Made by a program: the position numbers and the translations under genes. From assembly GCF_002159915.1 (NCBI RefSeq), contig NZ_NFJP01000012.1, positions 1-64,000 on the forward strand: a stretch of DNA of 64,000 bases. The letters run 5' to 3'. Each line of letters starts with the position of its first letter. The stretch's first letter is position 1. This document shows positions 11,408 through 57,575 of this stretch, in pieces. The notes under the pieces were generated by a model. That model saw only the letters and a program-made list of their open reading frames with translations. It was not told the origin of the DNA and ran no database searches. This DNA is from Gordonibacter sp. An230 (GTDB taxonomy: Bacteria; Actinomycetota; Coriobacteriia; Coriobacteriales; Eggerthellaceae).

Positions 11408-11600
11408 ATCCCTCTCCTTTTCTGTCGGTGTGCCGTCTTGAGCAAAGGGCATCCGTTTTGCGCGGTTCTGCCCTGCCCGCCCTTCGAAAACCTATCAGGA
11501 TCGGCTCGTCCGCTCTTCCTACAAACGGTATGAACTTGCTGATGGACGTGCGATTCATCCCGGTTTTCTGATATAAACGTGTCTTGGGGAAGGAGCGGAG

Positions 11601-19508: not shown

Positions 19509-21437
19509 ATGGGATCCTTTGAGATGAATCGACGCGCGTTTCTTGGGCTTGGGGCCACGGCGGCGGTGGCCGCGGGCATGGGGCTGGCAGGCTGCTCGCC
19601 CAGAGCCGCGAGCGAAGAGGCGGCGTCGGGCGCTGCGGTCGAAGCGGTCGAGCTTCCCGTGGGCGCGCCGAAGGGGACGCCTACAACAGCCGCCTGGTGC
19701 GCTGTGCCTGAAGCCATAGCCGATATCTCCGAGGAGAAGTCGTTCGATGTGGTGGTGGTCGGTGCCGGCATCGCGGGTTTGTCCGCTGCGGCGACGGCTG
19801 CTGAGCTGGGCGCATCGGTGGCCGTGATCGAAACGCTCAGCACGTACCAGACGCGCGGCCAGGATATCGGCACGGTCAACTCGTCGTTCCAGAAAGCGAA
19901 CGGCTTGGAGGCCAGCGAAGAGGATATCAACCAGATGTGCCTTGCATTGCAGCGCTACGCAGGCAACCGCACCGATCAGCGAATCTACCGCGTGTGGGGT
20001 CAGCGCTCCGGTGCCGATTTCGACTGGTGGTACAACACCATGCTCGAGCCGAAGGGCTACGGCATCGAAATCCCGCGCTGGCCGATGGAAGTGGAGTACG
20101 ATCCGGTGGACGGCGAGTGGTTCCCGCAGTTCTGCAACCAACAGGAGTTCACCGCGCCCGAAGGCGAAGAGGCGGGGATGAACGGCGGCTTCCCCGGCGC
20201 TATCGGCGAGCTTGAAGCGTATGCGAAAGATCATGGAGCGGAGTTCTTCTACGAGCATCGCGGTCGGCAGCTTGTGCGCGGTGGGCAACCGAACGGAACC
20301 GAAGGGCGCGTGACGGGCGTGATCGCAGAGACGTCGGATGGGTCGCATATCCAATTCAACGCGACGAAGGGCGTGATTTTGGCCACGGGCGATTACGGCC
20401 ACAACGTTGATATGATGCAGGCATGGTGCCCGTCGCAGTTGGAGCTGTCGCAAGAGAACAACGTCTATCCGAGCACGGGCAACGTGGGCGATGGCCATCT
20501 CATGGGCTTGTGGGTGGGCGGTATGATGCAGGCCATTCCGCACGCCTACATGGCGCACGGCACTCCTGGCATGCTTGGCTCCGATCCGTTCCTCATCGTC
20601 GACATGAACGGTCGGCGCTTCACGAACGAGGACATTCCCGGCCAGTCGTTTTCCGATTTGGCCGAGGAGCAGCCTGGCGTTGTGTTTTGGCAGATAGCCG
20701 ATGCGAAGTACCCTGAGCAGATGAAATGGTCCTCGCCGACGCATGGCGCGCAAATGAGCTTCACCGGCGACATCGATGCTTGGAATGCCGCTATGGAGAC
20801 GGGCGATAAGGACGCTATCGAATCCATGCTGACCGAGCAAGGGGTGAACCTCCAGCACGCTTGGACGGTCGAGGAGTTGGCCGAGGGCATCCACGTGGAC
20901 GCGGCCACGCTGCAGGAGACGCTTGACCGCTACAACGGATTCTGCCACGACGGCTACGATGCCGATTTCGGCAAGCAGGCCAAACGTCTGTGGCCGGTGG
21001 AGAACCCGCCGTACTTCTACAGCACGAGCGGTCAATGGGCGTTCATGCTCACGATGGGCGGCCTCAAGGGCACCGAGAAGGCCGAGGCCATCGACCAATG
21101 GGGAAACCCCATTCCCGGTTTGTGGATGGCGGGCAACGTGCAGGGCATGCGTTTCGCCATCGACTACCCCACCATCGTGTGCGGCCTTTCGCATTCGCTG
21201 TGCCTGACGTTTGGACGCGTGGCGGCCGAGCAAGCGGTTGCGGCCGATCCGGACGTTACGGAGCACGAATCGGTGTACCGGGAGTGGAAGGAAGCGAACC
21301 CGGATGCCGACGCCGCTGGTGGTGCGGCGGGTGCAGGTGGAGCGCCGGCGGGTGGCGGCGCTCCTGCAGGAGGGGAAGCTGCAGGTGGCACCCCGGCAGA
21401 TGGTGAGGCTCCCGTTGCGGGCGGCTCGACGGAATAG
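19509..21437 (+). CDS. Tat-exported FAD-dependent reductase, copy 2, with Gly/Ala/Pro-rich tail
   Basis: This 642-aa protein has a twin-arginine signal (NRRAFLGLG, R8-R9) and lipobox LAGC (C29). The FAD motif VVVVGAGIAG lies near 80, and NGRRFTNED near 375 marks the fumarate-reductase-like capping region; IPGQSFSDL follows where fumarate reductases carry a catalytic arginine. The last 45 or so residues are low-complexity Gly/Ala/Pro/Glu, unlike the other copies, and may be a wall-spanning linker or surface tail. AGGAAGGGG precedes the ATG at 19509. The LuxR-type gene 190 bp downstream on the same strand is the likely partner regulator. The acceptor is unknown. Confidence 0.86.
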   Translation: MGSFEMNRRAFLGLGATAAVAAGMGLAGCSPRAASEEAASGAAVEAVELPVGAPKGTPTTAAWCAVPEAIADISEEKSFDVVVVGAGIAGLSAAATAAELGASVAVIETLSTYQTRGQDIGTVNSSFQKANGLEASEEDINQMCLALQRYAGNRTDQRIYRVWGQRSGADFDWWYNTMLEPKGYGIEIPRWPMEVEYDPVDGEWFPQFCNQQEFTAPEGEEAGMNGGFPGAIGELEAYAKDHGAEFFYEHRGRQLVRGGQPNGTEGRVTGVIAETSDGSHIQFNATKGVILATGDYGHNVDMMQAWCPSQLELSQENNVYPSTGNVGDGHLMGLWVGGMMQAIPHAYMAHGTPGMLGSDPFLIVDMNGRRFTNEDIPGQSFSDLAEEQPGVVFWQIADAKYPEQMKWSSPTHGAQMSFTGDIDAWNAAMETGDKDAIESMLTEQGVNLQHAWTVEELAEGIHVDAATLQETLDRYNGFCHDGYDADFGKQAKRLWPVENPPYFYSTSGQWAFMLTMGGLKGTEKAEAIDQWGNPIPGLWMAGNVQGMRFAIDYPTIVCGLSHSLCLTFGRVAAEQAVAADPDVTEHESVYREWKEANPDADAAGGAAGAGGAPAGGGAPAGGEAAGGTPADGEAPVAGGSTE

Positions 21438-29242: not shown

Positions 29243-31012
29243 CTATTCGTTCTCGACGATGAACTTGCCTGCTAGGTAGCTGAGGGTGAGGTTGCTGCCG
29301 TAGGTGAATCCGGGCACCATATAGGTGTACTGCGCATAGAACATATCGCCTATCATGCTCCCGACGTTATACAACCCTTCAATGGGATTATCGTCTTTGT
29401 CGCATACCCGCATGTTCTCATCGGTGCGGAGGCCTCCAAGGATGGTGAGGAAAAAGCTCGTGTCGCTCACCTCTCCGTAGAAAGGTCCTTTGGACAGCGG
29501 AATCATAAAGCCGGGATGCTTGTGGAACAGGGAGTCTTCTCCTGATTCGCAGTCGGCGTTATACCGTTCGATGTTGTCGAGCGTGCTTTCGGGTAGTCCC
29601 ATTTGGCTTACCAACTCGTCGAGCGTGTCGGCCTTGAAGTACAGGCCAGACTCCACGCTTTTCTCCCACGATGCGATAACGTCGTCTGCCGACAAGGGTT
29701 CGGCAATGCCGTAGGGTTTGCTGCCGTCGATCCATTCGAGCGGGTACTGTTCGGCGTAGTTGACATCCCATAAGGCGTAACTCACTCCACCGGGGCAGCC
29801 CATTTGGATAGTGAAGGGCAACGTGCCCAGCATCCCGTACTCATTACAGAAGCGTTTGCCTTCGCGGTTGACGGTGAACCCGGTGAAGGGCAAGACGCCG
29901 TTCATAGGGCCGGCTTTCACGCCGCCGCCGTTCGGGCAAGCGGGCCATGCCTTCTGCCATGCCGCGCCGATCCAAAGCCCCATCTTTTGTCCGTCTCCGG
30001 GGAACAACCCTCCGTACACGAGTTCCTTGTCGTAATTGGGCTCCTCGTCGAAGAAACTTTCGGTGATGTACTCCATTGCCTGAGGAGCGTATTTTGCCAT
30101 CATGTCACGATTCGTGGAGAAATCGCCGGTGGCCAGCACCACGGCCTTGCTTCCCACATACTGGACATAGGTGCCGTCTTCCTTTTCGGCTATGACGGCG
30201 TTCACACGACCGCTTGTTCCGTTCGGCGTATCGCCGCGGACGAGCTGGCACGCTTTGGTGTGGTAGTGAATGGAGGTGCCGGACAACTCTTCGAAACGCG
30301 CCGCCAGCTCATTGACGACGAGAGGTTGGTTGAATCCCATGCCGGGGTTTTCGTCGTTGTACCAACCGTGCGCGCCGGGGACGTAGTAGATGGAGCCGCT
30401 CTCGTTGTTGATGGTGGGAACGAAGTTCTCGATGCCGGTTGTGTAGCCGCGTTCCTCCATGATATCGATGAGCCAGTTCATAACCTCTTCGGAGTGGTTG
30501 TAGTACTGGTACCATTTACGGGTGTCCACGCGGGCGCCGTTTGCCTGCAGCTCCTTTTCATACCATTCGGCGCTGTTGCGCGGAATGCCAAGGGCCTCCA
30601 TGGTTTTGCTATACGTGGCGTGATTCGACCCGCCGCGGCTGATGGGTTTGCTGCTGGCGCTGATGAGCACCACGTTCGCTCCTTCTTCGGCGATCGAATT
30701 GGCCACGGTCAGGCCACCCGTGCCGGCTCCTACCACGACGACCTCCGCCTCGATGGTTTCTGCGATATCGGTGATGGGCTCGTCAGGAGTTTCAAAGGAC
30801 CACGTTCCAAAGTACGAGTCGGCGGTCATGGCGCCGTCGTGCGCCGAGGACGGGGCGGTTGCGTTCGAGGCCGAGTCTGTCTGGGGCTTCGATGGCGAGC
30901 AGCCGGCCATTCCGGCAGCCACTCCGGCTCCGGCAAGGGCTGCTCCTGTGAGAAAACTCCGGCGCGTGAGGCCGTTTCGATGGGCGTTTCCCCGCGTTGC
31001 GTTTGCGTGCAT
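29243..31012 (-). CDS. Tat-exported FAD-dependent reductase, copy 4
   Basis: This 589-aa protein has a longer N-region before the twin arginine (LTRRSFLTG, R17-R18) and lipobox MAGC (C38). The FAD motif VVVVGAGTGG lies near 95. VNREGKRFCNEYGMLGTL is the capping-domain signature, and the following residues differ from all other copies, pointing to a different substrate. AAGGAGGAGG precedes the ATG. The LuxR gene downstream on the same strand is its likely regulator. Location outside the cytoplasmic membrane as a lipoprotein is inferred from the signal. Confidence 0.86.
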   Translation of the reverse strand: MHANATRGNAHRNGLTRRSFLTGAALAGAGVAAGMAGCSPSKPQTDSASNATAPSSAHDGAMTADSYFGTWSFETPDEPITDIAETIEAEVVVVGAGTGGLTVANSIAEEGANVVLISASSKPISRGGSNHATYSKTMEALGIPRNSAEWYEKELQANGARVDTRKWYQYYNHSEEVMNWLIDIMEERGYTTGIENFVPTINNESGSIYYVPGAHGWYNDENPGMGFNQPLVVNELAARFEELSGTSIHYHTKACQLVRGDTPNGTSGRVNAVIAEKEDGTYVQYVGSKAVVLATGDFSTNRDMMAKYAPQAMEYITESFFDEEPNYDKELVYGGLFPGDGQKMGLWIGAAWQKAWPACPNGGGVKAGPMNGVLPFTGFTVNREGKRFCNEYGMLGTLPFTIQMGCPGGVSYALWDVNYAEQYPLEWIDGSKPYGIAEPLSADDVIASWEKSVESGLYFKADTLDELVSQMGLPESTLDNIERYNADCESGEDSLFHKHPGFMIPLSKGPFYGEVSDTSFFLTILGGLRTDENMRVCDKDDNPIEGLYNVGSMIGDMFYAQYTYMVPGFTYGSNLTLSYLAGKFIVENE

Positions 31013-45311: not shown

Positions 45312-46253
45312 TTACAGCGCGGGGCTCGAGTGGCGGTGCGCCACGACGGTGGGGTTCGCCTTGATGACGGCGTGCAGCTCGTCGATGTAGCGCAGCAGCA
45401 AGGGGCTCGGGCGGCGCTCGTTGTGCATGAGGTAGCCCACCTGCATCGTCTCGTCCACGGCAAGCGGGATGCTCGCAATGCCCGAGTGCATTTCGGCCGA
45501 CAGCACCCCGGTTGACAACGTAAATCCGTTGTAGCTGGTCAGCAGGTTGGTAAGCGTACCTCGATCCGAGATGCGTATGTTGCGCTTGTGCGGTAGGTGG
45601 GCGAGCGGTTCCTCGGAGTAGTAAAACGAGTTCGTGGCGCCTTGCTCGAAAGAGTAGCGCGGGTATGGTTCCAGATCCTCGGGTTTGATCAGCGTGCGGT
45701 CGGCTAGCGGATGATGTTCGCCTACGAATACGTGCACGCGCGCATCGAACAAGGGGGAATAGGTCACGTCAGCGTCGTCGAAGGCCTTGCGCAGCACGCG
45801 GCGGTTGAAATCGTCGGTGTAGAGGATGCCCACCTCGCTGCGGAATGCGCGCACGTCGTCGATGATCTCGGCCGTGGTGGCTTCGCGCAGCACGAATTCG
45901 TACTCCTCGCCTTCGCATGCCTCCACCACGTTCACGAAGGCTTGCACGCTGAACGCGTAATGCTGGGTGGACACGGCGAGGCGCAGGTGGGCGGCTCCTT
46001 TGTCGGCGTAGCGCGCCTCTAGCATGTCGGCTTGCTCGATAACCTGGCGCGCGTAGCCTAAAAGCTCGGTGCCGTCGTTGGTGAGCGTCACGCCACGGTT
46101 GCTGCGCGTGAACACGGTGATGCCCAATTCGCGCTCGAGCTCCTTCATGGCGGTGGATAGGTTCGACTGCGAGGCGTACAGGTTCTGCGCGGCGGCATTG
46201 ATGGAACCGTGCTCCGCGATGGCGATAAGGTAGCGCAGCTGCTGCAAAGTCAT
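45312..46253 (-). CDS. LysR-family regulator A
   Basis: This 313-aa protein has an N-terminal LysR winged helix (about 1-60; LRYLIAIAEHGSINAAAQNLYASQSNLSTAMKELE) and a periplasmic-binding-like effector domain (about 85-300). The ATG at 46253 is the standard LysR start (MTLQQLRYL). It is on the same strand as the second LysR gene but separated from it by a terminator. It may belong to the glycyl radical enzyme locus, yet it is not adjacent to any of its structural genes. Confidence 0.87.
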   Translation of the reverse strand: MTLQQLRYLIAIAEHGSINAAAQNLYASQSNLSTAMKELERELGITVFTRSNRGVTLTNDGTELLGYARQVIEQADMLEARYADKGAAHLRLAVSTQHYAFSVQAFVNVVEACEGEEYEFVLREATTAEIIDDVRAFRSEVGILYTDDFNRRVLRKAFDDADVTYSPLFDARVHVFVGEHHPLADRTLIKPEDLEPYPRYSFEQGATNSFYYSEEPLAHLPHKRNIRISDRGTLTNLLTSYNGFTLSTGVLSAEMHSGIASIPLAVDETMQVGYLMHNERRPSPLLLRYIDELHAVIKANPTVVAHRHSSPAL

Positions 46254-46453
46254 GGGCGGTCGCCTTCCGATAGGGCAGATGGAGCGCTCCGAGCGCGTTC
46301 CATCTCATTATATTCCACCGATCCGTCATCGCGGACGGTAAGGGTGCACTGCTGGTTCTGCGCGTTCGCTCTCTTCGATCCCGGTTCGTTTGCGCTCGGG
46401 GTCGGGCGAGCGGGGCGCTTTGGCCGGACGAGCCGACAGGTCTGCTCTGCGCG

Positions 46454-46493
46454 AACGGGGCATCGAGGCTAAAGCCTAAGCGCCCGCCCCGTT
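46454..46493 (-). terminator. terminator of LysR gene B
   Basis: AACGGGGC (46454-46461) pairs with GCCCCGTT (46486-46493), enclosing a smaller AGGC/GCCT stem. It lies just downstream of the LysR gene stop at 46509 on the minus strand. Confidence 0.5.
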
Positions 46494-46508
46494 GCGAAAC
46501 GGTGTGGG

Positions 46509-47414
46509 CTACAGGTATCGCGTGAACACGTTCACGAATGCGGATACGATCTCCCGTGTTTGACGCGGCATGTTTTTGTTGATGGCGACGAAGGCGGTGA
46601 GTGTGGCGCGCTTGTCGCTGAGGGGGATGTGCACGAAGTCGGGGAAGACGTTGTACTGCACGTAGGGTTGGAAGCTGTACATCACGGCACGTCCTTTGTT
46701 CAGCTCGTCTTTGCACAAGACGGGGTTGTTGGTGGAAAGGCTGACGTCGAAATCGGCTAACTTGGAGAGGGAGTGCACGCCCGAAGCCCCGCCCACTTCG
46801 TACACGATGATCGGGTATTGGGACAAGGCTCCGACCGTGAGCGTCTTTCGGTTCGCCAAGGGATGCTGCGGCGACACGGCGGCGTAGGTGCGGAAGGTCG
46901 TCAGCTCGAAGAGCTCGATATCGTCGGGAATGCCGTCAAAAAACTCGACCAGAAGTTTGGACACCAGCAGGATCCCGCATGTCGTGATGTTCTCCGCGAT
47001 CTGGCCGATGATGTCCTGCCGATACTTTTCGCAGGTGAAGGCGGCAACGTTGGGATAGAGGGAGCGGAATTCCGTAAAGGCGAAAGGCAGGACTGATACG
47101 CCGAGCATGGGGGATATGCTGATGCTCAGCTCGCCGCGGATGCGCTCCCGGGGGCTGGCGGTGTTGGCGAGGTCCGCATACAAGGCGTCTAGCCTCGCTA
47201 AGATGTCCCGAGCGGCTATGACCGCCTTCTTGCCGTTCTCGGTGAGGCGGACACCCCGCTCGCTGCGTTCCAGGAGCTGGCAGCCAAGCTCGCGCTCCAA
47301 GGTGCGCATCGAGTTGTCCAAGGCTTGGCGGGATATGTGAATGTTCTTGGCGGCCATGCTTATCGAGCAACATTTGGCTATTTCGGCTAATCCTGACAAT
47401 TGCTCTAAACGCAT
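46509..47414 (-). CDS. LysR-family regulator B, divergent from the anion transporter
   Basis: This 301-aa protein has a LysR winged helix (about 1-60; LEQLSGLAEIAKCCSISMAAKNIHISRQALDNSMRTLE) and a ligand-binding domain of the usual length. It is divergent from the transporter at 47826 with a 411-bp intergenic region, the standard layout for a LysR protein controlling the neighbouring operon. I infer that it responds to the substrate or intermediate of the glycyl radical enzyme pathway. Confidence 0.88.
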   Translation of the reverse strand: MRLEQLSGLAEIAKCCSISMAAKNIHISRQALDNSMRTLERELGCQLLERSERGVRLTENGKKAVIAARDILARLDALYADLANTASPRERIRGELSISISPMLGVSVLPFAFTEFRSLYPNVAAFTCEKYRQDIIGQIAENITTCGILLVSKLLVEFFDGIPDDIELFELTTFRTYAAVSPQHPLANRKTLTVGALSQYPIIVYEVGGASGVHSLSKLADFDVSLSTNNPVLCKDELNKGRAVMYSFQPYVQYNVFPDFVHIPLSDKRATLTAFVAINKNMPRQTREIVSAFVNVFTRYL

Positions 47415-47825
47415 GGCATTCCTCCCTCATGAATTACGACCGAGAAAAAGCATTCGCTTGGCATAGAGCATAAGGAAAGCGGGATGCCCTTAGTTTATAG
47501 ATGCGAGGTGGGGTGAGACGCGGTATGTGGGCAAGATATGCAGCTTTGCCTTGCATACGCCCATGCGGGGCAAAGGATATCGGCTGCTCCGTCCTGCGCA
47601 CAGGTTTTCCCGTCCCTATACTGTGGGCAAGAGCAGGGTTCGAATGAGGGGTTTTGAAAACGGATGGGGACGGCTGCGCATGACGGCAGCGATGCGGGTT
47701 GCATGGTCTGTCCTCGCCGAGAGGGAATATCGTCGGGCCGCTTTTCGGAGAGCGATGCAGCCGGGATGCGGCGAAGGGCGATGACGCGAGCTGCATGATC
47801 TGCCTTACATGAGAGGAGGGGTCGT
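47415..47825. promoter_or_regulatory. divergent control region of the glycyl radical enzyme locus
   Basis: This 411-bp gap holds TAAGG-N12-CCTTA (47471-47492), a candidate LysR site close to the regulator start, and a TATACT -10 candidate at 47617-47622 for the transporter operon. The leader to the transporter would be about 200 nt. No gene is evident. Confidence 0.45.
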
Positions 47826-49229
47826 TTGGACGCTCAGGGAAGGATAGGGGGCCTGCGCTTTTCCAAGAAAGCCGCCATCCAGGGGATTATGACGTTCGGG
47901 GTGCCTTTTCTGCTGTTCTTGATTCCCACGAACGAAACGTTCACCCCAGTTATCCAGCGCTATTTTGTCATCACGTCCATGGCCGTCATGACGTTTTGCT
48001 TCGGCAATGTTCCACAGACGGCGGTGGCGATCCTTCTGCCGGTAAGCTATGTGATATTCGGAGTCGCGCAGCCCTCAGACATCTACTCGGTGTGGGCGGG
48101 CGACACCATCTGGATGATTTTAGGTGGCATCATCCTGGCGGCGATCCTGCAGAAGTCGGGACTGCTGAAGCGCATCGCGTACAAGTGCATCATCCTCACG
48201 GGTGCGAGCTACCGGGGCATCATCGTCGGTCTAGGCCTGGCGAGCATCGTTCTCACCATAATCATGCCCGGCCAAGGGTTCATGGCGGTCGCTCCGCTGT
48301 CGTACGGCATCTGCAAGGCGCTGCATCTTGGCAAGGGAAAGGACGCGGCTGGCATCATGCTGAGCGGTGCGGTGCTGTCGCTGTCGACGCATTTCTTCCT
48401 GTACAACCCGCATACCCTCGTCGTGTTTGGCGTGGGCGAGCAGGTGACGGGCCCCTTGAACGTGACATGGGGCAGCTACTTTATGAACAATTGCATCAGC
48501 ATCGTGTTCTTCCTGCTTCTGATGGGCGTGTGCCTGCTGATGTTCAAGCCGTCGAAGCCCTTGTCCGGCAAGGAGTACTTCGTGGGCGCGCTTGCCGACA
48601 TGGGCAAGATGCAGCTGCAGGAGAAGAAGTGCATTGCCGTCAGCGTGCTCTTGGTCGCCCTTCTGGTGACTCAGCCGCTGCACGGCGTGAGCGCCGGCTG
48701 GATTTTCACCGCGGTGCCCATGCTGCTGTTCTTGCCGGGCATTGCCGTCGGGGACAGCGAGGACCTAAAGAAGATAGACTACGGCTTCATCTTCTTCATC
48801 GGCGCCTGCATGGCTATCGGATCCAGCACGTCCTCGCTGGGCATCGGCGACATAATTGCGGATATCGCCATCCCTGCTTTGCAGGACTGCTCGGCGACGC
48901 TCGTGCTGTTCGTGGTCTACGTGCTGTGCTTCCTGTTGAACTTCATCATGACCCCTTTGGCCATCTGGTCGGCGTTCGCGGTTCCGTTCGTGAGCATCAC
49001 CAACGCCGTAGGCATCGATCCGCAGGCGCTGTTCTTCCTCATGTACCACGCGACAGACCAAGTGATCATGCCCTACGAGTACGCGTACTACCTGCTGTTC
49101 TTCTCGTTCGGCCTGATTCCGCTGAAAGAGTTTGTGAAGATCATGGGTGTCAAGACGATTTTGAACGCGGTGTTCGTGTTCGCGATTTTGATCCCGTTCT
49201 GGAATCTGATCGGGTTTTTGATGGCCTGA
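47826..49229 (+). CDS. SLC13/DASS-type anion symporter
   Basis: This 467-aa membrane protein has about twelve hydrophobic segments and resembles divalent anion:sodium symporters (DASS, CitT/SdcS-like): repeated helical hairpins such as SVWAGDTIWMILGGIILAAIL and a C-terminal mirror repeat with VPFVSITNAVGIDPQ. It probably imports a carboxylate, sulfonate or related anion. The start is TTG with GAGGAGGGG upstream. It is followed at 123 bp by the glycyl radical enzyme on the same strand, which points to substrate uptake for that enzyme. Confidence 0.82.
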   Translation: MDAQGRIGGLRFSKKAAIQGIMTFGVPFLLFLIPTNETFTPVIQRYFVITSMAVMTFCFGNVPQTAVAILLPVSYVIFGVAQPSDIYSVWAGDTIWMILGGIILAAILQKSGLLKRIAYKCIILTGASYRGIIVGLGLASIVLTIIMPGQGFMAVAPLSYGICKALHLGKGKDAAGIMLSGAVLSLSTHFFLYNPHTLVVFGVGEQVTGPLNVTWGSYFMNNCISIVFFLLLMGVCLLMFKPSKPLSGKEYFVGALADMGKMQLQEKKCIAVSVLLVALLVTQPLHGVSAGWIFTAVPMLLFLPGIAVGDSEDLKKIDYGFIFFIGACMAIGSSTSSLGIGDIIADIAIPALQDCSATLVLFVVYVLCFLLNFIMTPLAIWSAFAVPFVSITNAVGIDPQALFFLMYHATDQVIMPYEYAYYLLFFSFGLIPLKEFVKIMGVKTILNAVFVFAILIPFWNLIGFLMA

Positions 49230-49352
49230 CTGATTGCCGAAGCAGGACGGATCGACGGGCGCGTGGCGGTAAGCGCAAGGTTGGACTTACGGGATGGGCT
49301 CCTCAAGGGTCTTCCTGTGTAAGTTGAAAAGCCGTGAGAAAGGATTTCTGCT

Positions 49353-51848
49353 ATGTCGAACGTTTCGGAGTGCTGCAGGACGCTGTCACCGCAAGAGCAA
49401 CACCTTGCGGACATCGCCAAGGGGGACACCAGCTACAAGAAGGGAAGGGAGCGGGTGTTCAAGATTCTCGATCGCGTGCAGAATCTGAAGCCCGTCATCG
49501 ATGCGGAGCGCGCGAAGTACTTCACGCAGTCCATGATCACCACCGAGGGCGAGCACCTTACCCTGCGTTGGGCGAAGGCGATGATGAACATCGCCAAGAA
49601 CATCACCGTGTACGTTGAGGAGGACAGCCTGATCTGCGGCCGTGCTGGGTGCCAGGGCCGTTACGGCATCCTGTATCCCGAGCTTGACGGCGACATCTAC
49701 GAAGAGGCCATCCGCCTTCTTCCCACCCGAACGACCTCGCCGTTCGACATGAGCGAGGAGACGATCGACACCATCCTCACCGACATTGCGCCCTTCTGGG
49801 ACGGCAAGACGTTCTTCAACGATCTGTACAACGCCCTGCCCGAGGACACCTTGAAGCTCACCTACGAGCCCGAGGAGAAGGCCACTTCCCGTTTCATTGT
49901 GAACGAGACGGCTTCGTTCCGCTCTTCCAACCAGTGGGTCCACGACTACGAGAAGGTGCTGAAGCGCGGCTTTAAGAGCATCAAGGAGGAAGCGCAGGCG
50001 AAGCTCGACGCCCTCGATCCCATGGATCCTCTGGACAACGTGAACAAAAAGCCTTTCTACGAGGCCATTGTCATCGTGTGCGACGCTATCGTTCTGTGGG
50101 CCAACCGCTACGCCGATCTGTACGAGCGCGAGGCGCAGAAGTGCGCGGATCCTGTGCGCAAGCAGGAGATGGAGAAGATCGCCGAGCGTTGCCGTCACGT
50201 GCCTGAGTACCCTGCGCGCGATTTCCCCGAAGCCATTCAATCGCAATGGTTCGTTCAGATGTTCTCCCGCTTGGAGCAGAAAACCGGCACCATCATATCC
50301 AACGGGCGCATGGACCAGTATCTCTACCCCTACTACAAGGCCGACAAAGACGCCGGTAAGCTGACCGACCAGCAGGCGATGGAGTATCTGGAGTGCATGT
50401 GGGTGGGTATGTCCCAGTTCATAGACTTGTACATGAGCACCACCGGAGGCGCTTTCAACGAGGGCTATGCGCACTGGGAGGCAGTGACCATCGGCGGACA
50501 GAACTCGGAAGGCAAGGATGCCACCAACGAGCTGACCTACCTGTTCTTGCGCTCGAAGCGCGAATTCCCCATGCACTATCCCGATCTGGCGGCGCGCGTG
50601 CACGCTTTGTCGCCGCAGCGCTACATCGAGGAAGTGGCGGAAACTATCAAAGAAGGAAGCGGGTTCCCCAAGCTGCTGAACGATGAGGAGATCGTGCTGC
50701 AGCTGGTGTCCAACGGCGCGAAGATCGGCGAGGCGTACGACTATGCCGTCTCCGGCTGCGCCGAGGCCCGCATGCCCAACCGCGACACCTTCACCTCGCC
50801 AGGCGTGTACATCAACTTCGCTTCCGCTATCGAGATGGTGATGTACAACGGTCGCACGCTGAAAACCGGCGACGAGGTGCTGGGCCTTCAGACGGGCGAG
50901 GTCGAAGACCTCAAGACATGGGACGATGTGTGGAACGCCTACGTGGCGCAGGCCACCAACCTGCTGAAGCATGCCTTCGTGCAGCAAAAGTACATCGATC
51001 GGCTGCGCGAGAAGCATTTCGCTGTTCCCATGAGCTCGTCTCTGCACGATCTGTGCATGAAGGAGGGCCTCGACCTGCACACGGAGTTCATCCCCGGTGG
51101 CGTTGATATCGGATACTTCGAGTCCATGGGCTTCGGAACCGTGGTCGACTCCCTGGCTGCCATCAAGAAGTGCGTCTTTGACGAAAAATCCACCACCCTG
51201 GCCGAGATACGCGATGCCATGAGGGCCAACTTCAAGGGCTACGAGATCCTGCAGCAGCGTTTGCGCATGGCGCCGAAGTACGGCAACGATGATCCGTATG
51301 CCGACGAGATAGGCAAGGCGTGCGACTTGGTGTGCTCTGAGTTCACGGAGAAGTACTCCCGTTCTTTGGGGATCAACTACTGCCTGCGCTATGTGCCGTT
51401 CACCTCTCATGTTCCGTTCGGCGAGGTGGTTGGCGCTACTCCGAACGGCCGCGTGGCGTGGTTCCCCCTCTCCGACGGCTCGTCCGCATCGCAGGGCGAT
51501 GATACCAACGGTCCCACGGCGGTGCTTCTGAGCAACTTCTACACGAAGAACCCGAGCTTCCATGATCGCGCCGCTCGCCTGCTGAACATCAAGTTCGATC
51601 CCAGCGCGGTAGCGGGGCAGGAGGGAACGGACAAGCTCTGCTCCTTTATCCGCACTTGGTGCGATTTGAAGCTCTGGCATGTGCAGTTCAACGTTGTCAA
51701 CCGCGAAACCCTGGTTGCCGCTCAGAAGGATCCCGACAAGTACCGTGGGCTCATCGTGCGCATCGCGGGCTACAGCGCTTACTTCTGCGACCTCTCGCCG
51801 TCGTTGCAAGACGATCTCATCGCTAGGACGCAGACAGCCACGATCTAG
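49353..51848 (+). CDS. glycyl radical enzyme of the sulfonate lyase/dehydratase type (IslA/HpfG/HpsG-like)
   Basis: This 831-aa protein is a PFL-like glycyl radical enzyme. The radical glycine is G806 in RIAGYSAYF; the thiyl cysteine and base glutamate are C469 and E471 in SGCAEARMPN. R190, Q194, W375 and R679 each sit one position after residues I recall for the sulfonate pocket and radical site of isethionate sulfite-lyase IslA (R189, Q193, W374, R678; C468, E470, G805), a striking match. Residues near 681-683 (VPF) may differ, so a related substrate such as dihydroxypropanesulfonate is possible. Known members cleave C-S or C-O bonds anaerobically. AAAGGA lies before the ATG. Transporter upstream and activase downstream form one locus. 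Confidence 0.85.
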   Translation: MSNVSECCRTLSPQEQHLADIAKGDTSYKKGRERVFKILDRVQNLKPVIDAERAKYFTQSMITTEGEHLTLRWAKAMMNIAKNITVYVEEDSLICGRAGCQGRYGILYPELDGDIYEEAIRLLPTRTTSPFDMSEETIDTILTDIAPFWDGKTFFNDLYNALPEDTLKLTYEPEEKATSRFIVNETASFRSSNQWVHDYEKVLKRGFKSIKEEAQAKLDALDPMDPLDNVNKKPFYEAIVIVCDAIVLWANRYADLYEREAQKCADPVRKQEMEKIAERCRHVPEYPARDFPEAIQSQWFVQMFSRLEQKTGTIISNGRMDQYLYPYYKADKDAGKLTDQQAMEYLECMWVGMSQFIDLYMSTTGGAFNEGYAHWEAVTIGGQNSEGKDATNELTYLFLRSKREFPMHYPDLAARVHALSPQRYIEEVAETIKEGSGFPKLLNDEEIVLQLVSNGAKIGEAYDYAVSGCAEARMPNRDTFTSPGVYINFASAIEMVMYNGRTLKTGDEVLGLQTGEVEDLKTWDDVWNAYVAQATNLLKHAFVQQKYIDRLREKHFAVPMSSSLHDLCMKEGLDLHTEFIPGGVDIGYFESMGFGTVVDSLAAIKKCVFDEKSTTLAEIRDAMRANFKGYEILQQRLRMAPKYGNDDPYADEIGKACDLVCSEFTEKYSRSLGINYCLRYVPFTSHVPFGEVVGATPNGRVAWFPLSDGSSASQGDDTNGPTAVLLSNFYTKNPSFHDRAARLLNIKFDPSAVAGQEGTDKLCSFIRTWCDLKLWHVQFNVVNRETLVAAQKDPDKYRGLIVRIAGYSAYFCDLSPSLQDDLIARTQTATI

Positions 51849-51899
51849 TTTCAGGGTGCATGGCGCTCTGCACCGGTGAATGTATCTATGGCAATTGAT

Positions 51900-51938
51900 C
51901 GTGCCCCGATCCCTCTGGGCAGGGGCACGACTTTTGCT
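51900..51938 (+). terminator. attenuating hairpin between enzyme and activase genes
   Basis: CGTGCCCC (51900-51907) pairs with GGGGCACG (51922-51929) around 14 nt, followed by ACTTTTGCTT. A partial terminator here would keep activase mRNA below that of the much more abundant radical enzyme. Confidence 0.55.
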
Positions 51939-51956
51939 TGCGGAAGGGAGGTGCGT

Positions 51957-52847
51957 GTGGAAAAGGGATGCGTGTTCAATATTCAGAAGTACTCGGTGCA
52001 CGATGGGCCCGGAATCAGGACGATCGTTTACCTGAAGGGTTGCCCGCTGCGTTGCAAGTGGTGCTGCAACCCCGAATCGCAGTTGGAAAAACCCCAGATC
52101 GCCTATAACATCGAGAAGTGCATAGGGGACGTATGCCTGCTCTGCGAGGGCGTGTGCCCGAGGCACAACATCGCCTTCATGGACACCAACAAGGTTTGGA
52201 TCGATCATGGCAACTGCATCAACTGCCTGCAGTGTGCGAAGGTTTGTCCGGCGGGTGCGATCATCAGCTATGGGGAATACCGCGAAGCGAGCGATGTCGT
52301 CGACGAGGTGGAGCGCGATCTGACGTTCTATAGCCGCTCGGGCGGCGGCATGACGTTGAGCGGCGGTGAGCCGCTTCTTCAGGCAGACTATGCTTTGGCG
52401 CTGCTCAAAGAGGCGAAGAGACGGGGCATCAACACGGCCATAGAAACGTGCGGCTGCGTGCCATGGAAGAGGGCTGAGGAAGTGTTCTCCTACCTCGACT
52501 ACGCCTTTTTCGACATCAAGAGCATGGACGCGCAGAAGCACAAGGAGTGGACCGGATGGGACAATTCCGTTGTGCTCGACACGTTTAGGAACATGCGCGA
52601 AGCTTATCCGGAATTGAAGACCCGGGTCAGGACTCCGGTGGTGCCCGGTTTCAACGATACGGAAGACGACATCAGAGCCATACGCGACCTGGCCCGAAGC
52701 TATCCGAACACCGATTACGAGCTGTTGCGTTACCATCGCTACGGCACGACGAAGTACACGTTCATCGGCAAGGAATACGAGCTGGGCGATCAGGAGCTGG
52801 ACGACGCGCTCTTCGAAAGGCTCAAGCAGATATCGAACGAGGAGTGA
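51957..52847 (+). CDS. glycyl radical enzyme activase (radical SAM)
   Basis: This 296-aa protein installs the glycyl radical on its partner. The radical SAM cluster motif is C29-x3-C33-x2-C36 (GCPLRCKWCC). An inserted ferredoxin-like domain has two four-cysteine sets (C55, C60, C63, C67 and C87, C90, C93, C97), as in activases of dehydratase and lyase type but not PFL. MTLSGGEPLLQ is the SAM-binding GGE region. A GTG at 51957 with GGGAGG five bases upstream is the best start; an in-frame ATG at 51876 lies before the hairpin and would add 27 residues. The next gene starts 11 bp after the stop. Confidence 0.9.
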   Translation: MEKGCVFNIQKYSVHDGPGIRTIVYLKGCPLRCKWCCNPESQLEKPQIAYNIEKCIGDVCLLCEGVCPRHNIAFMDTNKVWIDHGNCINCLQCAKVCPAGAIISYGEYREASDVVDEVERDLTFYSRSGGGMTLSGGEPLLQADYALALLKEAKRRGINTAIETCGCVPWKRAEEVFSYLDYAFFDIKSMDAQKHKEWTGWDNSVVLDTFRNMREAYPELKTRVRTPVVPGFNDTEDDIRAIRDLARSYPNTDYELLRYHRYGTTKYTFIGKEYELGDQELDDALFERLKQISNEE

Positions 52848-52858
52848 GAGGTGAGTGC

Positions 52859-53704
52859 ATGAAAGTCATCGACTTCAGGTTCCGTCCGCACAGCAAAGCC
52901 ACCTTGGAAGGCCTGGCCAACAGCGTTATTTTCCGTGAAGGGCTGCTTGCCAACGGGGTTGATCTGGACGCTTTCGTTGCCAAAGCCCAGGGCATGGACG
53001 AGATCACGTCGCAATTGCGACGTGACGGCGTGGTCAAGGCGGTCATCGTGGGGCGCGATGCGGAAACGACGTACGGCTTCGCGCCGAACAACCAGGAGGT
53101 TGCCGACTTCGTTGCGTTCGACCCGGACGTGTACGTGGGTTTCGCAGGTTTGGACCCGCACAAGGGCTCGGAGTCGGTGGAAACGCTCATCGACCTCGTA
53201 GAGAACCGGGGCTTCGGCGGGGCGGCCCTCGACCCCATCTACGCGCAGGCGGCGCTTCACGAACGTTGCTACTACCCCGTTTACGCGACGTGCGAGCGCC
53301 TGCGGATCCCCCTCGTCATCACGTCGGGTCCGGCGCGCTACACCCCCAAAACGGTGATGGACTACGCGCGTCCCGGCTACATCGACCAGGTGGCTGCCGA
53401 TTTCCCCGAACTTAAGATCGTGGTGAGCCACGGTGGCTGGCCCTACATCGAGGAAATGATGGGCGTGGCGTTTCGCAACAAGAACGTCTATTTCGAGCTA
53501 TCGGAGTACGAATCGTTCCCTGGTAGCGATAATCTCATCAAAGCTGCGTCAACCGTCATTTCTGATCAGATGCTGTTCGCCAGCGCGCATCCTTTCGTTG
53601 ATTACCGGGATGCGATAAAGTTCTACCGTACGTTGCCGTTCGACGACGTGGTTCGGGAGAAGATCATGTGGAAGAATGCCGCCGCCGTGCTTGGTGCGGC
53701 GTAA
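52859..53704 (+). CDS. amidohydrolase-2 fold protein with missing metal ligands
   Basis: This 281-aa TIM-barrel protein resembles the ACMSD/resorcylate-decarboxylase group of amidohydrolases. The HxH metal motif on strand 1 is replaced by R7 and R9 (DFRFRPH), the expected strand-5 histidine region reads VITSGPARY, and the usual GSD near the end reads ASAHPF (A243). Only the strand-6 histidine H191 (VVSHGGWP) is kept. It may work without metal or have a non-hydrolytic role. GAGAGGTGAG precedes the ATG at 52859, 11 bp after the activase stop, so it belongs to the radical enzyme operon. Processing of the lyase product, or removal of a protecting group from the substrate, are guesses. Confidence 0.8.
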   Translation: MKVIDFRFRPHSKATLEGLANSVIFREGLLANGVDLDAFVAKAQGMDEITSQLRRDGVVKAVIVGRDAETTYGFAPNNQEVADFVAFDPDVYVGFAGLDPHKGSESVETLIDLVENRGFGGAALDPIYAQAALHERCYYPVYATCERLRIPLVITSGPARYTPKTVMDYARPGYIDQVAADFPELKIVVSHGGWPYIEEMMGVAFRNKNVYFELSEYESFPGSDNLIKAASTVISDQMLFASAHPFVDYRDAIKFYRTLPFDDVVREKIMWKNAAAVLGAA

Positions 53705-53830
53705 GCGTGGCGTACGATATGCTTTCGCAGGTCGTGCTGTAATGCGCGGGTTTCGCTGTCGGTGGCGGCCTGCGAAGGCGTTGGTCATGGCGGGGCAGGT
53801 CGCGGTCAGCGTTCGGAAAAGGAGCAGCCA

Positions 53831-55105
53831 GTGGATGTGAGCCAGATAGTAGCCATCGCGGTGTTCGTCGTGGTCATGGTAGCGATCATGACCGAGAAGC
53901 TGCACCGTTCGCTTGCTGCCATCACGGGAGCTATGATCGTGCTCGCGCTGCATGTGATGCCGTTCGATGCGGCGATGGGGCACATCGACTTCAACACGTT
54001 AGGCGTGCTGTTGGGTATGATGCTGTTCGTGTCCGTGGTGAAGCTGTCGGGAGTATTCGAGTTTTTGGCCATCAAGAGCGCCCGCCTCGCCAAAGGCGAC
54101 CCATGGAAGATCATGCTGTTGTTCGTGCTGCTCACAGCTGTGCTGTCGGCATTTCTCGACAACGTGACCACCGTGCTGCTCATCGGCCCAATGACGCTGA
54201 CCGTGTGCAAGCTGCTCGATGTCAACCCCATCCCGTTTTTCATGACCGAGATCCTCGCGTCGAACATCGGCGGAACTGCTACGCTCATCGGAGACCCTCC
54301 CAATATTATGATAGGCTCGGCTGCGGGTTACTCGTTCTTCGACTTCATCGTGTACGACGCTCCTGCCGTGGTTGTTATCCTGATAGCCGTGCTCTTCGTG
54401 TTCTACCTTGTGTACGGTCGCACGATGCATGTAAGCGAGGAGCATCGCCGACGTGTCATGGAGCTGGACGAGCGCGAGCAGATCAAAAACCCGCGCCTGC
54501 TCAAGCAGAGCGTGATCATGACCGCTCTCGTGGTGGTCGGCTTCATGGCGCACGGTGCGCTCGGGCTGGAGTCGTGCATCATCGCGCTCGGTGCGGCGGG
54601 CGTCATCATACTGATCTCGGGAGAGAGCATCGAGGAAGCCCTGTCGAACGTGGAGTGGACCACGCTGTCGTTTTTCGCCGGCTTGTTCGTTATTGTGGGC
54701 GCGTTGGTGGAGACCGGTGTCATCGGCGCGTTGGCGAACGGACTGATCGACGCAACCGGTGGCAACGTGTTCGTCACCATGCTCGTGCTACTGGTCGGCT
54801 CGGCCGTGATATCGAGCTTTCTGGACAACATCCCGTTCGTGGCCACGATGATCCCCATTCTGCTGGCCATGGAATCAACCGGCATGGACGCGACGCCCTT
54901 GTGGTGGGCCGTCTCGCTGGGGGCGTGCTTGGGCGGCAACGGCACGCTCATCGGCGCCAGCGCCAACGTGGTGCTGTCCGACATCAGCAAGAAGCACGGT
55001 TACGAGATAACGTTTGCGAAGTATCTGAAGACGGGCTTTCCCATCATGTTGCTCACCGTCTTGATAGCTGGCGTCTATCTGGCAATCCGCTTTCCTCCGG
55101 CATGA
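53831..55105 (+). CDS. ArsB/NhaD-type anion permease
   Basis: This 424-aa protein has about eleven membrane segments and belongs to the ion transporter superfamily with ArsB, NhaD and the P permease. Paired re-entrant signatures are SAFLDNVTTVLLIGPM and NIGGTATLIGDPPNIMIG in the first half and SSFLDNIPFVATMIP and GGNGTLIGASANVV in the second. It may export an anionic product such as sulfite or a carboxylate, or act as a sodium/proton antiporter. The start is GTG with AAGGAG six bases upstream. It is 126 bp behind the amidohydrolase-fold gene on the same strand and probably part of the locus. Confidence 0.85.
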   Translation: MDVSQIVAIAVFVVVMVAIMTEKLHRSLAAITGAMIVLALHVMPFDAAMGHIDFNTLGVLLGMMLFVSVVKLSGVFEFLAIKSARLAKGDPWKIMLLFVLLTAVLSAFLDNVTTVLLIGPMTLTVCKLLDVNPIPFFMTEILASNIGGTATLIGDPPNIMIGSAAGYSFFDFIVYDAPAVVVILIAVLFVFYLVYGRTMHVSEEHRRRVMELDEREQIKNPRLLKQSVIMTALVVVGFMAHGALGLESCIIALGAAGVIILISGESIEEALSNVEWTTLSFFAGLFVIVGALVETGVIGALANGLIDATGGNVFVTMLVLLVGSAVISSFLDNIPFVATMIPILLAMESTGMDATPLWWAVSLGACLGGNGTLIGASANVVLSDISKKHGYEITFAKYLKTGFPIMLLTVLIAGVYLAIRFPPA

Positions 55106-55476
55106 TGCATGACGGATGCGTCGCCGTAGCTCGCGAGCGTATCGCGACTCTGCCGTCGTGCCGTTTTCGGCCAATGTCGGTTTGAGGTGGAAGGCGATGG
55201 CGAGAGGCCCGTTTCGCTGAGGTAGCGAGGGGCGATTCGATAAGGGGGGGCGCCTGCTGCTGCGCGCCCGGCCCGCGCTCGTCCCCGCGCTTCCCGGCGC
55301 CGGCCGCGGAGGGGGGAGGCTCGCCGAGGGGCCCCTCCGCATGCTGGGGGGGGGTCTATGGTTTTGCCGGCCCTGGGAGTCGGGTCTCTCTGCGTGCCGG
55401 CGCCCCTCCGCTCCCGCGGGGCCGCGGAGGGGCGCCGGCCCCGGGCCGGGCGCGCGCGGGGGGAAGGGGCGGGGCG
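55106..55476. other. GC-rich palindromic gap with poly-G run
   Basis: This 371-bp gap contains a perfect 16-bp inverted repeat (GCCGGCGCCCCTCCGC at 55396-55411 with its complement at 55424-55439), an earlier related pair around GCGGAGGGG/CCCCTCCGC, and G9 at 55346-55354. The large stem can terminate the flippase gene on the minus strand. No gene is evident. Confidence 0.5.
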
Positions 55477-57189
55477 TCACTCTTCGGCGAGCTCGTCGTC
55501 CCAGGAGCGGCGGCCGTGGCGGGCGCGACCTCCGGCCAGGTCGAGGGCCTCGTCGCTCGGCGCGCCAGCGCGCTGATGCGGCCCCCGCTTCGCATGCGCG
55601 CGCTCGCGGCGTTCGCGCTGCGCGCGCGCTTCGCTTGGGCGCGGATGATGGAAGTCCGCCTCCTGCGCTTCTTCCGCCCGAGCGGCATCCTCGCGAGCGA
55701 GCGAGGCGCGGATGCGCAGATACTCCCAGAACAGCAACATGAGCAGGATGCACATGACGATGAGGTAGCCGATAACGGCACCTGGCAGCCCGGTGAAGTT
55801 CACGAGCAACACCGGCACGAACAGCGAGAAACCGAACGTGATCAGGTACAGCTTCGTCACGGCCCGCTGCCTTCTGAGCACGGTGATCACCTGGTAGATG
55901 AACTCGATGGCAGCCGTGACACCTCCGGCGGCCAGCATGATGAGCGCCAACTCCCTAAACTGTTCGAAGTCGAGTCCGTACAAAAAGCCCATGATGGGGA
56001 TGCCGATCCAGCTCATCAGCACCATCACCGCACCTGTGAGGGCGATGATCATGGCGAGCATGGCGACGATGATGATGTTGAACTTCTTGCGTTTTGAAGG
56101 GTCGGCCCATGCTTGGGCCATGCGCATGGTCAGCGGTTTGTACACGAATCCGGCGGTAAGCAGGATGGCGTGCGCGGGGAAGTACAGAGCGTTGAAGTAC
56201 AGCTGGTTATCATAGGAGAGCGCGCCCTCCATGACGAACTTCGGCATGTTGTCGATGAGGTTGTACATGAACAGGGCCACAAAAAGCGGGAAACACTGCT
56301 TGAAAAGGGTGGCGACGCTCGACAGGCTGGCTCGCCGAGACTTCGGCGTTTCGAACAGCGTGAGCGGCAGCGTGAGGAACAGAAACGTTGCCACGGCGAC
56401 GATGGCCATGACGACGCATGCCACGGGAAGATTGCGTGTGATGAGCAGCGCAAAACTGAACACGACGAGAACGGTTATCGAACGAAATGCCTGCGATACT
56501 CCCGCCAAATACAGTTTGTCGGCCTGCTGCAAGCGCCCTTCGTACACGTCCGCGAGCGCGTCGATCATTTTGTACACGTACACGCCCCCGCTGATGACGA
56601 GCATGTCGCCCGAATAGCCGCGAACGGAGCAGTAGGCCGCCCCCGCCGCAAGCATGAGCACGCAGGTGATCCAGCGATTCACCTGATAGTCGGCGAACGA
56701 GTGCTCTTCGTCGATGTCGGAGGCTTGGTAGGTGCGCACGCCGTAGTTGCCCACGAACATGAGCATGAGGGCGGTGATGAACGCGAGCGAGAACATGCCC
56801 GCCTGCTCCACGCCCACAAGCTGCGTGACCACGATGGTGAGGACGGGGAACACCATGCCCCATGTTCCCACGCCCACGGTGTTCCATACGTAATCGCGGG
56901 TGGTGCGATGCGCGGCGTATTCGGCCTCCTGGTTGGTCAGCGAGCGTTCTGACACCGCGCCGAGGAGTCGGTTGCACCAGCGGTTGACGCTGCGGGTGAT
57001 GAAGTTGGGCCTGCGCGGCGGTTTTTCGGATGCATGGCGCTCGCGTTCGCGGGACGACGCGCCGAGGAAGGGCGCGGAGTCGGAGGAGGAGGGGGCACCG
57101 ACGGCGTCTGTGTCGAGGGGGGCAGGGGTGCGCTGCGCATTGCGCTTATGCACTCCCTGATAATCGTGCTCTTTCGACATGCGGTTCAT
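55477..57189 (-). CDS. flippase-like multi-helix membrane protein (MATE/MurJ/polysaccharide biosynthesis superfamily)
   Basis: This 570-aa protein has a charged N-terminal region of about 80 residues, twelve or so membrane helices (about 95-505) and a polar, Arg/Glu-rich C-terminal tail of about 65 residues. The helix layout and motifs such as TVGVGTWGMVFPVLTIVVTQLVG resemble the Wzx/RfbX lipid-oligosaccharide flippases. It likely moves a lipid-linked saccharide across the membrane. There is no glycosyltransferase cluster nearby, so it is an orphan. The ATG at 57189 is chosen, with 57180 also possible; ribosome-binding support is moderate (GGAGGAG further upstream). Confidence 0.75.
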   Translation of the reverse strand: MNRMSKEHDYQGVHKRNAQRTPAPLDTDAVGAPSSSDSAPFLGASSRERERHASEKPPRRPNFITRSVNRWCNRLLGAVSERSLTNQEAEYAAHRTTRDYVWNTVGVGTWGMVFPVLTIVVTQLVGVEQAGMFSLAFITALMLMFVGNYGVRTYQASDIDEEHSFADYQVNRWITCVLMLAAGAAYCSVRGYSGDMLVISGGVYVYKMIDALADVYEGRLQQADKLYLAGVSQAFRSITVLVVFSFALLITRNLPVACVVMAIVAVATFLFLTLPLTLFETPKSRRASLSSVATLFKQCFPLFVALFMYNLIDNMPKFVMEGALSYDNQLYFNALYFPAHAILLTAGFVYKPLTMRMAQAWADPSKRKKFNIIIVAMLAMIIALTGAVMVLMSWIGIPIMGFLYGLDFEQFRELALIMLAAGGVTAAIEFIYQVITVLRRQRAVTKLYLITFGFSLFVPVLLVNFTGLPGAVIGYLIVMCILLMLLFWEYLRIRASLAREDAARAEEAQEADFHHPRPSEARAQRERRERAHAKRGPHQRAGAPSDEALDLAGGRARHGRRSWDDELAEE

Positions 57190-57575
57190 GATGCTCGTCC
57201 CGCTCCTCCTTCGTGCTTCGCCCGGTGCGCCTTGCCCCATTATAGAGGTCGTGCCATGCGCGCTCTATAAGATTCATAGCGAAGGCAAACGATGCGGATC
57301 GCTCCGCGGCGCATGCAGACGCGGCGTGCGGCTTTGGTTGCCCGCACCTCCGATAGCGCCGCCTCGCCGAGCGACCGTTCCCGTCGCGCGGCCGGGCGCG
57401 CCTGCGCATCCGGCCGCTTTCCCATCTCGGCGAAGGATGCGGGTTGCGCGCTTTGCGGGGGGGGGGTGCTTTCCCGCGGCGGCAAGTGCGTCCCGACGCG
57501 GTCTCCTGCGGACTGGCACGCTTTTTGCTTTCGGGGAAGAAGGGCCGCATTCCCGATACGCGAAAAGGAGTGATC
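57190..57575. other. 386-bp divergent gap with poly-G run
   Basis: The gap between the flippase and fixA contains G10 at 57457-57466, about 110 bp before the fixA start. No gene or clear promoter consensus is visible. Length changes in the G-run could alter spacing of upstream control elements. Confidence 0.4.

Follow-up and report, generated by a model that had tools for sequence, protein, structure and literature searches.

Which sulfonate is cleaved by a glycyl radical enzyme (GRE) encoded in a gut bacterium of the Eggerthellaceae, and what becomes of the sulfite? The question is raised by positions 47826-55105 of the window (the whole stretch of 64,000 nucleotides analysed here, positions 1 to 64,000 of contig NZ_NFJP01000012.1 of Gordonibacter sp. 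An230, assembly GCF_002159915.1). An initial annotation placed a GRE, an activase, an amidohydrolase-fold protein and two anion permeases there; open frames were found in each of these places and domain scans agreed with the calls. The GRE gene (49353-51848, + strand) encodes an IslA-type protein of 831 amino acids with PFL-like and Gly_radical domains, and is the single PF02901 match in the source genome (3.88 Mb, 73 contigs, 96.66% complete, 0.86% contaminated). A stretch of 1,000 bases adjoining the 16S fragment of this genome has its best match in Collinsella aerofaciens (83.6%; 73.4% for the next row), in line with Coriobacteriia, as are a guanine-plus-cytosine content of 0.628 and the presence of reductase-like frames. 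Judged from its sequence, isethionate is the likeliest substrate, and we read the locus, with reasonable rather than high confidence, as a cassette that a gut bacterium of the Eggerthellaceae type has acquired for respiring isethionate.

Residues of the sulfonate pocket

Alignment with the isethionate sulfite-lyase IslA placed R190, Q194, W375, C469, E471, R679 and G806 of the window GRE opposite IslA R189, Q193, W374, C468, E470, R678 and G805. All seven IslA residues whose roles are given in PMC8473560 are thus conserved, C469, E471 and G806 being catalytic and R190, Q194 and R679 belonging to the sulfonate pocket. The initial annotation had listed the same seven residues, each shifted by one relative to IslA, and the alignment agrees; its list, however, omitted IslA position 192, where the window GRE differs. 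According to that study, the R189E, Q193A, R678E, E470Q, C468S and G805A variants of Bilophila IslA had no detectable activity.

The closest solved chains were 5ymr (1209 bits, 65.2% identity), 7kq3 (labelled isethionate sulfite-lyase; 1194 bits, 62.9%) and 6lon (1135 bits, 60.0%), the last being HpsG, the 2,3-dihydroxypropane-1-sulfonate (DHPS) sulfite-lyase, which shares the Arg/Gln/Arg sulfonate pocket. Diagnostic columns, fixed within and different between 10 IslA and 23 HpsG rows, were taken from an 80-row alignment; a long, fused row (L062) was dropped from the HpsG set, as were five columns in which the window GRE has a gap. Across the 27 ungapped columns the window GRE carries the IslA state in 16, the HpsG state in 5 and neither in 6. 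Its IslA states include Phe682, Thr312 and Gly586 (IslA numbering), whereas Ile682, Ala312 and Ser586 are fixed in all 23 HpsG rows.

Phylogeny of the enzyme

A GRE phylogeny, which the initial annotation had put forward as a check, was built by a quick method from 94 rows, after exclusion of duplicates of the window GRE and of frames in which fewer than 650 residues aligned. The window GRE groups with L002-L006 (support 100), then with L014 (98; flagged as a long row) and then with a Desulfotomaculum/Desulforamulus pair (96). L002-L006 come from metagenome-assembled genomes (MAGs) that bear the label Peptococcaceae or Clostridia; the names of three refer to cecum or colon samples. Their enzymes are 82-85% identical to the window GRE. 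HpsG forms a separate clade of 24 rows (support 100) and the window GRE falls on the IslA side, although the forks uniting its group with the IslA clade have a support of only 88, where the mark set by the tool is 95. The reading as a sulfonate-cleaving GRE of the IslA kind is thus supported.

In the two nearest relatives, L002 and L003, an iron-type alcohol dehydrogenase gene adjoins the GRE gene and has its top score on the AdhE model, which fits acetaldehyde as a product. A SarD-like role for this dehydrogenase was rejected: on the sulfoacetaldehyde reductase model the two proteins score 202 and 199 bits (cut-off 700). Separately, a candidate taurine aminotransferase in L075 had a generic aminotransferase subfamily as its top model and was not used.

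A substitution beside the sulfonate

Asn193 of the window GRE corresponds to Ile192 of IslA, which lies beside the sulfonate. Asn occupies this position in 6 of 80 rows, namely the window GRE and L002-L006, all members of one clade; the other 74 rows have Ile (34), Leu (36) or another residue (4), and none has Asn. HpsG rows have Leu. In PMC8473560, Ile192 of Bilophila IslA is placed near the sulfonate and its poor conservation is remarked upon; the I192A variant remained active, with a KM of 12 mM (8 mM for wild type) and a kcat of 0.40 per s (2.0 per s for wild type). The Asn may tune the enzyme or may mark another substrate, a choice that sequence cannot decide.

It is conceivable, but unlikely, that the GRE cleaves another sulfonate of greater polarity, such as 3-sulfolactate, DHPS or a related compound, with Asn193 contacting the extra group. 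The confinement of Asn to all six clade members, the closeness of residue 192 to the sulfonate and the long branch leading to the window clade (0.36) speak for it. Conversely, the similar KM of I192A and the poor conservation reported for this position argue against it, as does the retention of Phe683 and the other IslA-type pocket residues; HpsG, which acts on a C3 sulfonate, has Ile in place of this Phe and further changes. The initial annotation had also considered a substrate larger than isethionate. This is possible, and the replacement of Ile192 by Asn is the sole support found; its argument from gene content fails, since Desulfovibrio isl loci are without the same genes and the amidohydrolase-fold protein recurs in the family.

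Proposed fate of sulfite and acetaldehyde

The initial annotation noted that the locus has no aldehyde dehydrogenase, phosphotransacetylase or sulfite reductase. This is true of its frames but not of the genome as regards sulfite reductase and aldehyde dehydrogenase. Another contig (C12 in our numbering) carries dsrB (493.1 bits, cut-off 341.5), dsrA (561.5, cut-off 392.85), DsrK (721.5, cut-off 400) and DsrM (506.6, cut-off 300), together with a second DsrK-like gene just below the cut-off (387.7). A 105-residue frame on this stretch is a possible DsrD but matched no NCBIfam model at 1e-10, and neighbouring genes resemble, by eye, those for tetrapyrrole and siroheme. The dsr stretch has a guanine-plus-cytosine (GC) content of 0.633, against 0.634 in the flanks of the window locus; the tetranucleotide correlation is 0.964, whereas shorter stretches from two genus mates give 0.913 and 0.916. 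Three PF00171 aldehyde dehydrogenases are encoded (on C3, C18 and C23), the longest frame being 601 residues and none an AdhE-length fusion.

Among the 138 genomes of its family, and among the three of its genus, only this one has an IslA-type GRE. Matches to the GRE at 1e-50 occur in 8 of the 138, all besides the window's own at 31-35% identity. dsrB exceeds the cut-off in 17 of 138 genomes (10 of 48 genera), and within the genus it and the GRE are found solely together, in one genome of three.

In the pathway that we propose, the SLC13-type carrier of the locus would import isethionate and the activase would place the radical on G806. By analogy with IslA, C469 would then abstract hydrogen from C2 of isethionate, whereupon sulfite would leave and acetaldehyde be formed. 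DsrAB and DsrMK, whose genes are present, would reduce the sulfite to sulfide. Acetaldehyde could be converted to acetate or ethanol by unlinked dehydrogenases, of which the ExaC-like enzyme on C3 is the best candidate. The amidohydrolase-fold protein would accompany the pathway with no step assigned to it.

We favour isethionate respiration because the pocket and catalytic residues whose mutants lost activity in Bilophila IslA are kept, because most diagnostic columns and the side of the tree opposite HpsG point to IslA, because dsrA, dsrB, DsrK and DsrM exceed their cut-offs in the same genome, and because dsrB and such a GRE are both confined to this genome within the genus. Several observations weigh on the other side. 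Within the enzyme these are the loss of Ile192, an identity to HpsG not much lower than those to the IslA chains, and the modest support for the joining forks. As for the products, the top alcohol dehydrogenase score in L002 and L003 is 380 against a model cut-off of 951, and the C3 aldehyde dehydrogenase, closest to the ExaC acetaldehyde dehydrogenase, reaches 596.8 bits against 900. DsrC was not recognised on the 19.9-kb dsr stretch, no genome-wide search having been made, and the membership of the dsr contig in this genome rests on assembly and composition.

It is improbable that the sulfite released from isethionate is not respired but enters assimilation or leaves through the CitMHS/ArsB-type permease. 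Genomes named Serratia, Pectobacterium, Sporomusa and Clostridium do have similar loci, and the permease gene adjoins the cassette. None of these four is known to respire sulfite. Set against this are the four dsr genes of the same genome and their pairing with the GRE in just one of the three genomes of the genus. Sulfite export by an ArsB/NhaD-type permease, as the initial annotation had it, is thus not required, because dsrAB and dsrMK are at hand.

That the GRE is no sulfonate lyase but a dehydratase or other GRE is highly improbable: the NCBIfam model that it meets (NF048011) is named (2S)-3-sulfopropanediol dehydratase, but the Bilophila-type IslA of L031 scores 1495.8 bits on the same model, so that the name does not discriminate, the CutC, HypD and Klebsiella-type HpfG sulfopropanediol dehydratase (NF048009) models give 499, 523 and 451.2 bits against cut-offs of 1050, 1100 and 1000, and the enzyme retains the two Arg, the Gln and the Trp that are typical of IslA.

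The name of NF048011 was for this reason rejected as evidence of substrate. The model gives 1434-1571 bits for the window GRE, IslA-side enzymes and HpsG alike (L031, L073, L002, L009, L014), so automatic annotation will probably misname IslA.

Comparison with known sulfite-lyase loci

The initial annotation took the missing genes and the amidohydrolase as signs of a variant pathway. Both traits are already on record. According to Peck et al. (PMC6386719), the Desulfovibrio cluster consists only of transport genes, islA and islB, with acetaldehyde dehydrogenases elsewhere; according to PMC8667426, the Bilophila IslAB cluster includes gene 00649, of 'predicted amidohydrolase function'. The gene set is therefore not odd, and the proposal of a variant pathway is not supported.

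The window locus shares with IslA/IslB of Bilophila wadsworthia and Desulfovibrio the sulfonate-binding and radical residues and an activase gene downstream, besides the identities given above. It differs in the Asn for Ile192, in an SLC13-type carrier where Desulfovibrio has a DctP/DctMQ transporter, in having no microcompartment genes, and in a host beyond the phyla listed by Peck et al. With the Bilophila IslAB microcompartment cluster it shares a GRE, an activase and the amidohydrolase-fold protein, which we term AMH; it differs in being without shell proteins, AdhE and Pta. No shell protein genes were present among the frames scanned or read at 45.3-57.2 kb, the rest of the genome not having been searched. 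In L031 (Candidatus Bilophila faecipullorum) the order is the same: AMH, 43% identical to the window protein P0003, is last in the cluster, adjoining an RnfC-like gene and then microcompartment genes. L073, from the same species, has an HpsG-type GRE and activase followed by AMH and genes for a tripartite ATP-independent periplasmic (TRAP) transporter (neighbours in both judged by eye).

Genes of the locus

The carrier gene (47826-49229, + strand) encodes an SLC13/DASS-type anion carrier (PF00939, 79.1 bits, cut-off 27), which scores 89.0 on TIGR00785, below the cut-off of 198.6. It is the probable sulfonate importer; import by this carrier, as earlier suggested, is plausible. The radical SAM activase (51876-52847, + strand) has Radical_SAM and ferredoxin domains and scores 339.3 on TIGR02494 (cut-off 174.35) and 428.4 on NF048010, just below the cut-off of 430. 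Its first 27 codons are doubtful, the start in relatives lying near 51957 (GTG). The CitMHS/ArsB-type permease P0005 (53762-55105, + strand; PF03600, 319.3 bits, cut-off 31.9) may instead start at a GTG near 53831, placed by eye. Divergent from the cassette is a LysR-type regulator gene (46509-47414, - strand) with PF00126 and PF03466 above their cut-offs. Promoter-like sites at 46200-55600 numbered 2 (3.0 expected) and terminator-like sites 12 (6.3 expected).

Elsewhere in the window, frames at 9734-11452, 19509-21437 and 29243-31012 have N-termini resembling, by eye, the twin-arginine signals of secreted reductases.

Insertion of the cassette

An inserted stretch of approximately 46300-55400 separates a LysR gene (45312-46253) from a flippase-like gene (55477-57240), both common to genus mates. 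The immediate flanks align with the genus mates at 79-92% DNA identity; the cassette, which includes the permease gene, does not, apart from 161 bases of the GRE gene, which match a different GRE of the genus mate G088 at 69%. The same site in G088 holds, by eye, a phenylacetate-CoA-ligase-like gene, a LysR-like substrate-domain gene and an ATPase-like gene; in the other genus mate, G089, the first two precede the end of the contig. The GC content is 0.590 in the inserted stretch against 0.634 in the flanks. A single 22-kb stretch of L014 has homologues of the LysR (38% identical), GRE, activase, AMH and SLC13 (43% identical) genes, pointing to a Peptococcaceae-like source.

A pattern like an assembly junction or a strain variant is seen at the right edge of the insertion. 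Contig G000:C51 of the same genome (5,075 bases) opens with 77 bases identical to window 55604-55680, and its other end matches 55186-55444 at 93%. It carries a major facilitator superfamily (MFS) gene that adjoins the flippase-like gene in G089. The 2.5-Mb genome of another member of the family, G017, encodes seven divergent glycyl radical enzymes; the genes of four lie within a 16-kb span of its contig C3.

A companion protein of the amidohydrolase fold

The AMH gene (52844-53704, + strand; likely start ATG at 52859) encodes P0003, with 110.6 bits on PF04909 Amidohydro_2 (cut-off 26.4). It is predicted as an amidohydrolase barrel (predicted local distance difference test, pLDDT, 89.6), and its best structural matches are such barrels, headed by BB4693 of Bordetella bronchiseptica (PDB 3irs; Z 29.2, root-mean-square deviation 2.8, 264 aligned residues). 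BB4693 shares the TIM barrel fold and the replacement of HxH by DFRxRP; it is 28% identical and uncharacterised, its entry title giving no function.

Comparison of 17 AMH rows with 14 paralogues from the family of the window genome revealed the loss of four of the five metal ligands of Amidohydro_2 (HxH, His, His, Asp). The His of strands 5 and 6 and the Asp of strand 8 are present in all 14 paralogues, and HxH in each of the 13 that extend that far. In all 17 AMH rows, by contrast, HxH is replaced by RxR, the strand-5 His by Thr, Ser or Ala, and the strand-8 Asp by Ala, leaving only the strand-6 His; R12, R14, R71, H106, K107, H196 and H249 are invariant. The families given earlier for this protein and the two permeases are confirmed, but P0003 is no ordinary amidohydrolase in its ligands. 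P0003 has matches in 27 other genomes of its family, all at 25-28% identity; the 14 examined are paralogues of the ordinary kind, with metal ligands in place.

The association with the GRE was assessed in 149 Desulfovibrionaceae genomes (AMH at E <= 1e-80, GRE at E <= 1e-180). AMH occurred in 44 and the GRE in 47: both in 44, the GRE only in 3, AMH only in 0 and neither in 102 (Fisher p about 1e-34, related genomes not being independent). Among 62 AMH places, 49 lay within 20 kb of a GRE, and 11 of the 13 others were on a contig without a listed GRE. At the 80 fetched GRE loci, many cut by contig ends, AMH was present at 43% identity or more in 23, with a relative at 27-29% in four more. A genome search covering 50 of these loci found AMH at 1e-30 or better in 34 of 50 GRE-carrying genomes. 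The 16 without it include Samsonia, Serratia, Sodalis, Brenneria, Pectobacterium, two Sporomusa and one Clostridium, and also a Desulfosporosinus, a Desulfobacteraceae and a Nitrospiraceae MAG; the idea that AMH goes with sulfite respirers is a reading of genome names, with exceptions. The genomes of L003-L006 have AMH (395-397 bits) off the fetched GRE stretch, and that of L002 a weak match only (9.2e-47). Separately, the Mailhella genome of L036 (G171) encodes 18 AMH-like proteins, most scoring far below the GRE-linked family, an expansion of a wider RxR amidohydrolase group.

Thus, AMH is a standing companion of the IslA/HpsG enzyme family. We offer as a doubtful suggestion that it is a metal-free, arginine-lined protein dedicated to desulfonation, in which RxR would bind the oxyanion of a sulfonate or sulfite, and which would break carbonyl-bisulfite adducts or hand sulfite on. 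The adducts, equally conjectural, would be those of sulfite with acetaldehyde (IslA) or hydroxyacetone (HpsG). Its presence beside both enzymes and its absence from several genomes named as fermenters or acetogens would fit such handling. In the literature searched (amidohydrolase with isethionate, glycyl radical, sulfite-lyase), AMH appeared in just one table line, in PMC8667426. Metal-dependent bile salt hydrolases (PMC13081902) were discarded as a lead, neither PF04909 nor Eggerthella occurring in the available part of that text.

Implications for gut Coriobacteriia

By its sequence, the system is of a known kind but the host is new, a gut actinobacterium that bears dsr genes and encodes an IslA-type sulfonate lyase. 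The IslA hosts named by Peck et al. (PMC6386719) are Proteobacteria, Firmicutes and Bacteroidetes, and the literature searched held no report of IslA in Coriobacteriia, a weak absence given that subscription papers lie mostly outside its coverage. dsrAB-bearing Coriobacteriia are already listed in print, and the same 2023 review (PMC10591310) states that sulfite reduction by those of the gut awaits experimental validation and that their sulfite probably comes from sulfonates. The present genome holds both halves, a probable source of sulfonate-derived sulfite and dsr genes, which makes that idea directly testable. Furthermore, almost every Desulfovibrionaceae genome that carries an IslA/HpsG enzyme also has AMH. 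If isethionate respiration is indeed the role of the cassette, Actinomycetota would join the makers of gut hydrogen sulfide from isethionate.

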